NCBI RefSeq assembly: GCF_001187905.1
Contig: NZ_LGIS01000033.1
Location: 434,001 to 498,000, forward strand
From: Pantoea sp. RIT-PI-b
GTDB taxonomy: Bacteria > Pseudomonadota > Gammaproteobacteria > Enterobacterales > Enterobacteriaceae
Direction of reading: 5' to 3'
DNA length: 64,000 nucleotides
In this document: positions 26,310-61,372 of the stretch, in pieces
How the letters are laid out: each line of letters begins with the position of its first letter
Numbering within the stretch: position 1 is the stretch's first letter
Made by a program: the position numbers and the translations under genes
Notes under the pieces: generated by a model
Seen by the model: the letters and a program-made list of their open reading frames with translations, nothing else
The model's database searches: none
Told to the model about the DNA's origin: nothing

Positions 26310-27944
26310 CTAATTCCTGCAAACGCTGAGAATATCGTCTTTCGCTTGATACTCGTTCGTCTGAACCCCGGTTAATCCCAGCATGGTTGAGAACAGATTA
26401 TCCTGTGAATAACCGTTATGTGCCGCTTGCCGATCAACACAGGCTTTGCTCACGCCATAGCGCTGTTGATAGTCTGGCGACAGCCACATCAGCATCGGCA
26501 CATGTTTCTGCACATCCGGCGCAATGGCATACGGCATACCGTGCAAATAGGCGCCATTTTCGCCTAACGACTCCCCGTGGTCGGAGAGGTAGATCAGGCT
26601 GGTGGTATATTCATCCTGATGCGCTTTAAGCACCTTAATTGCTTTGTCGACAATATAATCGCTATACAGAATGGTATTGTCGTAAGTGTTAACCAGCTGC
26701 TCTTGCGAACAATCCTGAATTTGATTGGTATCGCAGGTCGGAGTGAATTTTCTAAACTGTGGCGGATAACGATTGAAATATGTCGGTCCGTGGCTGCCAA
26801 TAGTGTGCAATACGATCACGCCATTGCCTTTGAGATGTTTAATATAGTCCTCAATACCGTGGAATAACACCTCGTCATAACACTCACCGTCATGGCACAT
26901 ATTCGGCAGATTCAGGCTGGTCATATCCTGATGCGGGACACGATCGCAGGCGCCTTTACAGCCACCGTCGTTATCATTCCACAGCACCTGCACACCGGCA
27001 CGCTGGATAATATCGAGCAAGCCTTCCTGATGATCGGCAAGCTGATCGTCATAATGGCTGCGCGGCATATTGGAGAACATGCACGGCAACGAAACCGCCG
27101 TGGCGGTGCCGCAGGACTGCGTGTTGGGAAAATAGGAAACCGCGTCCTTAGCCAGCAACGGCGTGGTTTCCCGTACATAACCATTTAGCTGAAAATTCAC
27201 CGCGCGCGTGGTTTCACCCACCACCAAAATGGTGAGATTTTTCTTTGGTCCAATCAACATCGCGGGTTGTTGCTTTGCGTCTAAACCAATCTTCACCAGC
27301 GGCAAATTGGCGGTGCGGCTGTGGTTATACCAGAAGATCGACGCCACAATGGCGTTCGACGGACTGAGTGATTTAATCAGCTCTTTTTGATTACGAAATA
27401 GCGAGGCGTAATCTTTATAGAAAAACATGGCCACTAAGCAGATACAAATAATCGATACCAGCATCGACGCGGCGCGTTTAGCATAACTTTTCCACAATGG
27501 TGTTCCATTATTAATACGCAGCCAAAAAGCCAGCACGGCGACCAATAAGCCGCTGCAGCCCAACGTAATAATCAGTTTGGGTGACAATAACGCAAAGGAT
27601 TCAGAAGCGGTGGTATCGAGAATATTCACGATCATCGAGCGGTCGATGACAATGCCGAAGCTCCAGATAAAATATTGAGCGGAAGCCGCCACCAATACGA
27701 ATAACGCCAGAACAATGCGGTCGAGCCAGACCAATGAGGCAAGCGTTGCAATAATATTGATAACGCTAAATGCCACTAGCGGCATTGAGACGAACACCCA
27801 CATCGTGCGCAGATTATCGAGTGGCATGGCGTCAATAACCTGACGGTAAAAGGCGATGTTCAGAAACAGTGCAATATAGATTGAAAACAGCGTAATAAAA
27901 GTCAGCCGACTTACCGTCGGTCTTTTAGGCAGCGAAAATGTCAT
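26310..27944 (-). CDS. eptA: Lipid A phosphoethanolamine transferase EptA
   Basis: This 544-residue inner-membrane enzyme transfers phosphoethanolamine from phosphatidylethanolamine to lipid A, lowering surface charge and polymyxin binding. Five N-terminal transmembrane segments fill about residues 15-190. The periplasmic alkaline-phosphatase-fold domain follows: ILVVGETTRAVNFQLNGY (zinc Glu), the nucleophile threonine in SCGTATAVSLPCMFS, and the zinc Asp-His in YLSDHGESLGENGAYLHG. Paired cysteines typical of EptA (GGCKGACDR, MCHDGECYD, CDTNQIQDC) are present. Length matches E. coli EptA (547). Unlike in E. coli, no pmrAB genes follow; it stands alone with a PmrR-like micropeptide gene and PmrA-box-like repeats upstream, implying control by a PmrAB system elsewhere. 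Confidence 0.95.
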   Translation of the reverse strand: MTFSLPKRPTVSRLTFITLFSIYIALFLNIAFYRQVIDAMPLDNLRTMWVFVSMPLVAFSVINIIATLASLVWLDRIVLALFVLVAASAQYFIWSFGIVIDRSMIVNILDTTASESFALLSPKLIITLGCSGLLVAVLAFWLRINNGTPLWKSYAKRAASMLVSIICICLVAMFFYKDYASLFRNQKELIKSLSPSNAIVASIFWYNHSRTANLPLVKIGLDAKQQPAMLIGPKKNLTILVVGETTRAVNFQLNGYVRETTPLLAKDAVSYFPNTQSCGTATAVSLPCMFSNMPRSHYDDQLADHQEGLLDIIQRAGVQVLWNDNDGGCKGACDRVPHQDMTSLNLPNMCHDGECYDEVLFHGIEDYIKHLKGNGVIVLHTIGSHGPTYFNRYPPQFRKFTPTCDTNQIQDCSQEQLVNTYDNTILYSDYIVDKAIKVLKAHQDEYTTSLIYLSDHGESLGENGAYLHGMPYAIAPDVQKHVPMLMWLSPDYQQRYGVSKACVDRQAAHNGYSQDNLFSTMLGLTGVQTNEYQAKDDILSVCRN

Positions 27945-28047: not shown

Positions 28048-28146
28048 CTACCAGGAGAACCAGACGGTAACAAAACTCACTACGGCAAATGCGCTGACAG
28101 CTACAGCCAGATATTCGCTAAACGGGCGGGACATCATCGATTTCAT
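28048..28146 (-). CDS. pmrR: PmrR-like small membrane protein upstream of eptA
   Basis: This 32-codon gene has AGAGGAAAT upstream of its ATG and ends in TAG about 100 bp before eptA. The peptide is one transmembrane helix with a positively charged N-terminus (MKSMMSR) and an aromatic end (VVSFVTVWFSW). It resembles enterobacterial PmrR, as I recall that peptide, in length, position relative to eptA, and the pattern L-x4-S-x3-V-x-S-F-x3-W-F. Known PmrR is PmrA-induced and binds and inhibits LpxT, so that lipid A phosphates stay available for EptA. The same role is inferred here. The gene is too small for usual gene callers. Confidence 0.7.
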   Translation of the reverse strand: MKSMMSRPFSEYLAVAVSAFAVVSFVTVWFSW

Positions 28147-28188
28147 GGAAAATTTCCTCTTCAGTTGAGGCTATTTTCAGTGCTGAAG

Positions 28189-59274: not shown

Positions 59275-60282
59275 TTAAGCGTTTGGCACCCGTTCCTGGG
59301 TGCCAAACCGCTGTCGGTACTGGCCAGGCGTGATGCCGGTGAGTTTACGGAATATTTTACGGAAGGCGGAAGGATCGCTATAGCCAATTTCCCAGGCGAT
59401 CTGATCGACAGCACGATTGCTCAGCTCCAGCGCATCGCGCGCTTTCATAATACGCACCTGCTGCAAATAATCCGTTGGGCGCATGCCGGTCGCTTTCTGA
59501 AAATGACGCAGGAAAGTGCGTGGCGTCATGCTTGCCAGCTCGGACATGGTCTCAATGCTGTGCTGTTCCGCATAGCGTGCATGCAGGTGATGCTGCGCGC
59601 GCAGAATCTGACTATCCCCGTGCTCAAAGTTAGGAATGAAAGCGGAATAGGTACTTTGTTCACGTCGCGGCGGATCGACAAGCAAGAAGCGCGAAGTGGC
59701 TAACATGGTGCCGGTGCCTAACACTTTTTCGATCAGCGTCAAACCTAAATCCGTCCATGCCAGTATCCCGCCAGCGGTAATAATATCGCCATCGTCGATA
59801 ACCATATTTTCTACCGCCACCTCAACCGCCGGAAAACGCTCTGCCAGCGTCTGCGCAAACGCCCAGTGCGTGGTGGCGCGGCGATGATCGATCAGCCCGG
59901 TTTCAGCCAGCACAAATGCGCCGGCGCATACCGAACACAGGGTAACACCCGCGTTATACAGTTCGCTCATCCAGGCGGCAGGCACCTTCATCGGCACCAT
60001 CCTGGCGGGCACCACCAGGCTTGGCGGCGCAATCACGTAGCTTAAACGATGCGGCGTATCAGGATGACTATCCCAGACGCACTGCATGTGATCGCTGTTT
60101 GGGTCTATCTGCCAATGCGATACGCGGATGGTTCGTTTGCGTTCCTCTCCGGAGATATTCTCCGCCCACTCTGCGGCGATCCTGAACATATCGGTCAGCC
60201 CATATATCGCCGCGAGCTGGCAATCGGGATACATCACCAGGCCGACCTCGGCAACAACGTGGTTTTCAGCTGATTTCATCAT
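59275..60282 (-). CDS. GlxA-family AraC transcriptional regulator (DJ-1/PfpI domain) 1
   Basis: This is a 335-residue regulator. Its N-terminal DJ-1/PfpI-like domain (EVGLVMYPDCQLAAIYGLTDMFRIA, NAGVTLCSVCAGAFVLAETGLIDHRRATTHWAFAQTL) carries CSVCAGAF at the nucleophile-elbow position, typical of GlxA/FtrA-like regulators where it serves ligand sensing. The C-terminal AraC pair of helix-turn-helix motifs reads SIETMSELASMTPRTFLRHFQKATGMRPTDYLQQVRI and AVDQIAWEIGYSDPSAFRKIFRKLTGITPGQYRQRF. It is divergent from the alpha/beta hydrolase gene at 60389, its likely target; TGTCATTAATGACA lies between them. Its stop is only 4 bp from the convergent chemoreceptor stop. Confidence 0.93.
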   Translation of the reverse strand: MMKSAENHVVAEVGLVMYPDCQLAAIYGLTDMFRIAAEWAENISGEERKRTIRVSHWQIDPNSDHMQCVWDSHPDTPHRLSYVIAPPSLVVPARMVPMKVPAAWMSELYNAGVTLCSVCAGAFVLAETGLIDHRRATTHWAFAQTLAERFPAVEVAVENMVIDDGDIITAGGILAWTDLGLTLIEKVLGTGTMLATSRFLLVDPPRREQSTYSAFIPNFEHGDSQILRAQHHLHARYAEQHSIETMSELASMTPRTFLRHFQKATGMRPTDYLQQVRIMKARDALELSNRAVDQIAWEIGYSDPSAFRKIFRKLTGITPGQYRQRFGTQERVPNA

Positions 60283-60318: not shown

Positions 60319-60388
60319 ATATTACACCTTGCCGTTTTCCCTGACAATGCATCCATCGAACAGCAATCAGCGTTAACAGGGATTGAAT

Positions 60389-61372
60389 ATGTCAGGTGCA
60401 GTGATTGAACAGTTAGCGATTTCACGACGAAGTTTATTGATTCTTGGCGGTACGCTGTCAGCCAGCATCGGGCTGGCGCACTCGGCCTTCGCCACCGGTT
60501 TAACATCATTATCATCACAGTCTGGAGATTCTAAAATGAGCAACGGCATCATCACTACTAAAGACGGTACCCGCATCTTCTACAAAGACTGGGGCCCAAA
60601 AAACGCACAACCGGTGGTGTTTCACCACGGCTGGCCTTTAAGCGCCGATGACTGGGACAACCAAATGTTGTTCTTCTTAGCCGAGGGTTACCGCGTTATC
60701 GCCCACGACCGTCGCGGACATGGGCGTTCCGATCAAACCGACAGCGGCAATGATATGACCACTTACGCTGCCGACGTCGCGGAACTGGCCAGGGCGTTGG
60801 ATCTGCGCAACGCCATCCATATTGGTCACTCCACCGGCGGCGGCGAAGTGGCGCGTTATGTGGCGCACGCTGAGAAAGGTCGGGTGGCGAAGGCGGTATT
60901 GATGGGCGCGGTGCCGCCAATCATGCTGAAAACCGCAGCCAATCCGCAAGGTTTACCAAAGTCGGTGTTTGATGGTTTCCGCTCGGCGCTGGCAGCCAAC
61001 CGCGCGCAATTCTTTATCGATGTGCCGGCAGGACCGTTCTACGGTTTTAATCGTCCAGGCGCGAAAATCAGCCAGGGATTGATTGATAACTGGTGGCGTC
61101 AGGGCATGGCGGGCGGCGCCAAAGCGCAATACGACTGTATCGCTGCCTTCTCTGAAACCGATTTTACCGAGGATCTGAAAGCGATTGGCGTGCCGGTGTT
61201 GGTGCTGCATGGTGAAGACGATCAGGTGGTACCGATTGATGACTCAGCACACAAAGCCATCAAATTGCTGAAGCATGGCACGCTGAAAACTTATCCGGGT
61301 TTGTCACACGGTATGTTCGCGACCCATCCTGAGCAGATTAACCCCGATCTGCTGGCGTTTGCTAAAGCGTAA
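60389..61372 (+). CDS. Alpha/beta hydrolase (non-heme haloperoxidase-like) with Tat signal and internal second start
   Basis: This is a ~327-residue enzyme: a ~45-residue N-terminal extension with a Tat-type signal ([25 protein letters not shown]), then the canonical hydrolase. Core motifs are [34 protein letters not shown] (oxyanion HGWP), [11 protein letters not shown], the nucleophile in [13 protein letters not shown], the acid in [10 protein letters not shown] and the base in [15 protein letters not shown]. Relatives are called non-heme chloroperoxidases but are mostly esterases. Inside the gene, the ATG at 60536 ([11 protein letters not shown]) has its own well-placed GGAG and matches the usual cytoplasmic start of the family. 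Both an exported and a cytoplasmic form may therefore be made. It is divergent from a GlxA-type regulator. Confidence 0.9.

Follow-up and report, generated by a model that had tools for sequence, protein, structure and literature searches.

A PmrR-like micropeptide gene directly upstream of eptA in Pantoea sp. RIT-PI-b and its relatives in the genus

PmrR is one of the few micropeptides with an assigned enzyme target and is known from Escherichia coli and Salmonella. In E. coli, PmrB activates PmrA in response to Fe3+ and mild acid. The pmrR gene of E. coli K-12 (b4703, YP_004831120.1) lies 3' of basS/pmrB, with which it is convergent and overlapping, and thus stands at the far end of eptA-basRS on the strand opposite to eptA, a location supported by passages of PMC8129183. 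Its product inhibits LpxT in E. coli (PMC8129183), and inhibition of LpxT by PmrR in E. coli and Salmonella is described in PMC8129183 and PMC4244539.

Here we analyze a stretch of 64,000 nucleotides from the draft genome of Pantoea sp. RIT-PI-b (G000:C23:434001-498000; hereafter the window), in which a 32-codon open reading frame (ORF) precedes eptA. The peptide resembles E. coli PmrR in its length (32 versus 29 residues), in a single predicted C-terminal helix spanning the membrane, whose SF...WF ending is similarly spaced, and in a box about 60 bp before the start codon (-59 in the window, -61 in E. coli); homologues of LpxT and PmrAB are encoded in this genome as well. Whereas the E. coli gene is convergent with the 3' end of pmrB, the window gene stands in tandem upstream of eptA on the same strand, probably on a megaplasmid; its box is degenerate, about 8 of 25 aligned residues are identical, and the genome has a second PmrR-like gene. 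A preliminary description had placed the ORF on the same side of eptA as enterobacterial PmrR; this is wrong, since E. coli pmrR is at the other end of eptA-basRS, and the positional argument was mistaken. We take the pmrB-convergent position to be the place of the E. coli gene, not a definition of what the peptide does. What is new here, and well supported, is a further member of the known PmrR family in a gene order different from that of E. coli. In the open-access literature we found no paper that joins PmrR with Pantoea or PmrR with Erwinia; such a search would overlook a peptide that goes by a different name or was published behind a subscription.

The reading frame and its megaplasmid setting

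The main features are collected in Table 1. The preliminary description of an ORF with a ribosome site, a hydrophobic helix and an aromatic C-terminus was borne out: the ATG-initiated frame follows a Shine-Dalgarno-like sequence, of which AGAGGA is common to the upstream regions of L019, L020, L023 and L026 as well, the last residues of the 32-residue peptide are aromatic, and a single membrane helix is predicted at about residues 12-31, with a best 19-residue Kyte-Doolittle mean of 2.1 (residues 13-31) against 1.9 in E. coli PmrR. Leu, Ser, Val, Phe and Trp-Phe are likewise spaced as in E. coli PmrR, in line with the earlier proposal (8 identities in 25 positions, ungapped and by eye). Downstream, after 103 bp, comes eptA in the same orientation. 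No Pfam or NCBIfam model matched the peptide even at E<=10, and the ORF is absent from the annotation of two plasmids that carry it, their gene table being incomplete. Judged by its sequence, the 32-residue peptide gene next to eptA is real, though easily overlooked.

Table 1. Coordinates of the features discussed (window positions unless a contig is given).
Feature	Position	Strand	Details
pmrR-like gene	28048..28146	-	32 aa; ATG start, TAG stop; peptide MKSMMSRPFSEYLAVAVSAFAVVSFVTVWFSW
Shine-Dalgarno-like AAGAGGA	28155..28161	-	read from sequence
PmrA-box-like site GCTAAGGATCGCTTAA	28190..28205	-	59 bp before the pmrR-like start codon; degenerate, 8/10 consensus
PmrA-box-like site ATTAAGGTTCACTTAA	27992..28007	-	63 bp before the eptA start codon; also found in relatives that lack the peptide
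eptA, lipid A phosphoethanolamine transferase	26310..27944	-	544 aa; 68% identity to E. coli EptA; similar plasmid genes annotated EptA
Third-best box-like site of the window, CTTAATGTGTCATTAA	60298-60313	+	16.1 bits; flanked by genes for an AraC-type regulator (59275-60282, -) and an alpha/beta hydrolase (60383-61372, +), gene names read from ORFs
Second PmrR-like peptide, VKDLIPRSFDELMAMSLTTFAVIAWILVWWHA	G000:C12:295105-295197 (L047:5106-5219)	-	about 32 aa; GTG start

The window belongs to a contig of 623,809 bases in a draft genome of 5.27 Mb and 35 contigs. The five top-ranked plasmid records with similar DNA all come from Pantoea and span 0.73-0.93 Mb; the three examined further (NZ_CP155067, NZ_CP102605 and NZ_CP040096) are typed rep_cluster_1232, and because of these matches we place the window, with probability rather than certainty, on the large Pantoea plasmid LPP-1. 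LPP-1 carries arn genes and RND pumps according to the paper that describes it (PMC3505739), a paper whose main text does not contain the terms 'eptA' and 'pmr'. The separation of eptA from pmrAB, also claimed in the preliminary description, holds in this draft, with eptA on contig C23 and pmrAB on contig C29. On the megaplasmid of Pantoea sp. SOD02 a lone winged-helix gene comes right after eptA (L068:1002-1469), and its domain shares about 51% identity with PmrA, as measured on L197, a stretch that overlaps L068. This gene is likely a remnant of a lost pmrAB, and its position after eptA suggests that the megaplasmid eptA descended from an eptA-pmrAB operon that lost pmrAB. A Pantoea-type eptA locus also occurs in a genome titled Enterobacter ludwigii EnVs2 (L100), which is probably misnamed.

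Relatives of the peptide within and beyond the genus

We searched 295 family genomes with a profile of 17 peptides from the genus (A1; E<=0.05) and obtained 31 rows outside the genus, of which we examined 23. Eight of these are convergent at the 3' end of pmrB, the site of E. coli pmrR (L165, L166, L169, L177, L183, L185, L186 and L188), three lie beside a GNAT gene (L170, L171 and L184) and twelve have none of the tested neighbours, although the sequences of two of the twelve, L164 and L168, resemble those of the family. When A1 was scanned across 295 genomes of the order, clear matches were confined to this genus; the peptides of two rows outside the genus, L073 and L074, were inspected and neither is at a pmr locus. 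E. coli PmrR, which is in none of our three profiles, ranks first among 811 short ORFs from three E. coli stretches including the pmrR locus, with E-values of 1.8e-4 and 3.7e-4 for the widened profiles and 0.041 for A1, or about 0.03, 0.06 and 7 when scaled to the whole E. coli genome. Because the scaled values are weak, no single alignment carries the assignment to PmrR, which draws instead on linking intermediates and on synteny; direct similarity of the window peptide to E. coli PmrR is low, and homology is reached via the intermediates. A chain of homologues ending at the E. coli pmrR position, together with a PmrA-box-like site at the distance typical of the family, makes the reading of the window ORF as a genuine pmrR homologue well supported. 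A tblastn search of the peptide against plasmids, which returned no match even for L067 and L068 where the peptide is present, proved unsuited to so short a query.

For ARRANGEMENTS in the genus, profile A2 gives 78 matches in 54 of 60 genomes (E<=0.05), 77 of which could be placed (G048:C23 was left out, having no stretch). A2 itself contains members of the site classes into which these 77 fall. The pmrB 3' end and the GNAT/pagP site account for 26 each, and at the latter, where the peptide adjoins a GNAT gene, pagP was detected close by in 23 cases. Ten, the window's included, immediately precede eptA, 6 precede an RND efflux operon, 3 follow an OYE-like gene and 6 lie elsewhere, one of these last being evidently spurious (G020:C35) but counted as 'other'. 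PmrR-like genes also adjoin arn genes. At least two site classes are found in 17 of the 54 genomes with a placed match, including the window's genome. Among 38 eptA stretches and the window, all 19 eptA loci with an adjacent pmrB have a convergent peptide, and 10 of the 20 loci without an adjacent pmrB have the peptide directly upstream, in the order box-pmrR-box-eptA; it is absent from that position in the other ten (L192, L193, L194, L197, L198, L199, L201, L226, L228 and L229). The L225 peptide, which falls outside the 110-residue ORF limit of this survey, is shown by the box and profile analyses.

The genus peptides at the 3' end of pmrB that the window peptide matches are 37-61% identical to it over the matched part, and most peptides of this site have the same motif, S-E-Y and W-F, with a box at about -58. 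Unlike the window gene they are convergent with pmrB, many have 39 residues with a longer N-terminus, and all 26 have boxes of at least 9/10. Residues R7, E11, Y12 and F30 are near-invariant in A1 and W29 is invariant in A2. In L061, L063, L163, L285 and L286 a PmrR-like peptide that has box-like sites upstream ends 84-104 bp before a co-oriented match to an RND efflux adaptor gene; PmrA may be linked to efflux here.

The second PmrR-like gene of the window's genome converges on cspE, with pagP beyond cspE and a GNAT gene on the other side (names read from ORFs), and its box CTTAAGGCGGGCTTAA matches the consensus at 10/10 positions at -62. Together with 25 other genus matches, this GNAT/pagP-site group resembles the window peptide in its length of about 32 residues, in a tryptophan at the same position and in a box at about -62, of at least 9/10 in 25 of 26, but differs in its own motif, MK-x-x-[IV]PR...E...WW, and in its locus. 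The GNAT-gene site recurs in three loci of other genera, and a profile of the second-site peptide, searched against 198 family genomes, matched 5 (E<=0.001), of which 3 belong to other genera. In the pagP-cspE-crcB stretch of E. coli K-12 no peptide is annotated between cspE and crcB and there is no profile match. This second, pagP-linked peptide is more surprising than the eptA-linked one.

Candidate PmrA boxes

We scored the consensus YTTAA-N6-YTTAA over its 10 positions within 160 bp upstream of each gene. After filtering on score (>=16.9 bits), C-terminal pattern and start codon, 62 distinct upstream regions were kept, many from closely related species; 53 contain a box of at least 9/10, against 3.6 expected from shuffles, and in 47 such a box lies at -63..-57 from the start codon. 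When the best of several possible start codons is taken for each peptide, a box of at least 9/10 at -66..-55 (background 0.0028) is found in 26/26 members of the pmrB site, 25/26 of the GNAT/pagP site, 3/6 of the RND site, 1/3 of the OYE site and 0/6 of the others. Only one of the ten eptA-upstream members has such a box, and two stand at 7/10.

In the window, PmrA-box-like repeats do flank the ORF, as the preliminary description had it, and these two sites are its best matrix matches: with a matrix built from 47 pmrR-family boxes that score 9/10 or better and come from species other than the window's, the eptA box ranks first and the pmrR-like ORF box second among 127,960 window positions, and the score of the latter is reached by 2 of 18,280 seven-position blocks of the window. 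Because shuffled upstream regions reach 8/10 somewhere in 160 bp about half the time, the weight of the window's own box comes from its position and matrix rank. A strict PmrA-box pattern gave 4 sites in the window's genome against 5 in a reversed control and so defines no regulon; one of the four is the box of the second PmrR-like peptide. From these sequence matches we infer that PmrA would bind and activate at the window's candidate boxes.

The proposed circuit and its alternatives

The components of the E. coli circuit have counterparts in this genome. An LpxT homologue is encoded at G000:C31:6395-7075 (61% identity to E. coli LpxT); the segments KDAS-x-DSFPGDHG and PRVM-x-GAHWFTD are kept, but a third, VKRASPTL in E. 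coli, is altered to VQHSSPTL here. LpxT co-occurrence is uninformative, however, because LpxT is found in 59 of 60 genus genomes. The PmrA and PmrB homologues (56% and 51% identity to those of E. coli) are both on contig C29, and the PmrA segment NTLEVHIHNLR, which we take to be part of the DNA-binding domain, is identical to that of E. coli. The neighbours of pmrAB, read from ORFs, are dacB-like and greA-like, with a TonB-receptor-like ORF after pmrB, and no profile match lies beside this pmrB. The genome also encodes another EptA-like enzyme (G000:C34:147913-149502; L002, L049), with 48% identity to the EptA of the window, and 30 of the 60 genus genomes have a listed match of this kind, at 47-50% to E. 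coli EptA.

By analogy with E. coli, a lipid A feedback circuit working in this lineage too is plausible, and LpxT is the presumed target of the window peptide. The pmrR homologue would form its own promoter-plus-ORF unit directly upstream of an eptA that has a separate PmrA box, and PmrB, by activating PmrA, would induce both units from their separate boxes. The peptide, presumably translated, would insert in the inner membrane as one helix and inhibit LpxT, which would otherwise phosphorylate the 1-phosphate of lipid A, thereby freeing this position for modification by EptA. We hold this whole explanation, a PmrA-induced pmrR homologue that stands as its own unit before eptA and inhibits LpxT, to be likely.

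A rather improbable alternative is that the main target of this PmrR-family peptide is not LpxT but a different protein such as EptA, PmrB or some further lipid A enzyme, with the pagP-linked peptide doing the LpxT job or both sharing it. The genomes with peptides in two or more site classes leave room for such divided functions, and PmrR-like genes occur beside RND efflux, arn and eptA genes; yet E. coli PmrR acts on LpxT, LpxT is encoded here, the helix pattern is the same and our results indicate no other specific target.

We rejected as very improbable the reading of the frame as a cis-acting leader ORF, whose translation would tune eptA expression while the peptide itself is inert. The ORF does lie on the same strand 103 bp before eptA, an order seen in 10 of the 77 placed genus matches, but the other 67 homologues are found at other sites, a separate box for eptA stands between the ORF and eptA, and the amino-acid sequence is under purifying selection. 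Over 30 aligned codons in 12 relatives mean pS is 0.59 and mean pN 0.17, and pN<pS holds for all 66 pairs, which are not independent of one another. When the five alternative frames are examined likewise, this pattern recurs solely in the antisense one whose third codon positions coincide with those of the ORF (pS 0.50, pN 0.18). Also against a leader, P. endophytica (L101) and Pantoea sp. SO10 (L069) keep eptA and its PmrA box while lacking the peptide cassette. Among close relatives the frame is kept in G028, a genome of the same species whose peptide is 94% identical over 32 residues, and in G023, G047, G032 and NZ_CP155067, whereas eptA is not preceded by it in P. endophytica (L101/L194) or Pantoea sp. 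SO10, where the cassette may have been either lost or never gained. A chance ORF in a promoter region, which its shortness, the missing family-model match and its omission from the incomplete gene table of two carrier plasmids might suggest, has a negligible probability given codons under selection, profile matches at one defined site in other genera and a box distance fixed across the family.

Returning to the presumed LpxT-inhibiting pmrR homologue, a conserved family with fixed promoter geometry would extend the EptA/LpxT competition circuit to Pantoea, and the family alignment shows which residues are kept. More tentatively, Pantoea and some relatives may possess a multi-member family of PmrA-controlled membrane micropeptides, comprising canonical pmrR, a megaplasmid cassette before eptA or an RND operon and a chromosomal cspE/pagP member, among which the work on different lipid A enzymes may be divided. 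If this doubtful but possible view is true, PmrR would be the founder of a broader class of peptides that tune lipid A, not a single LpxT inhibitor.
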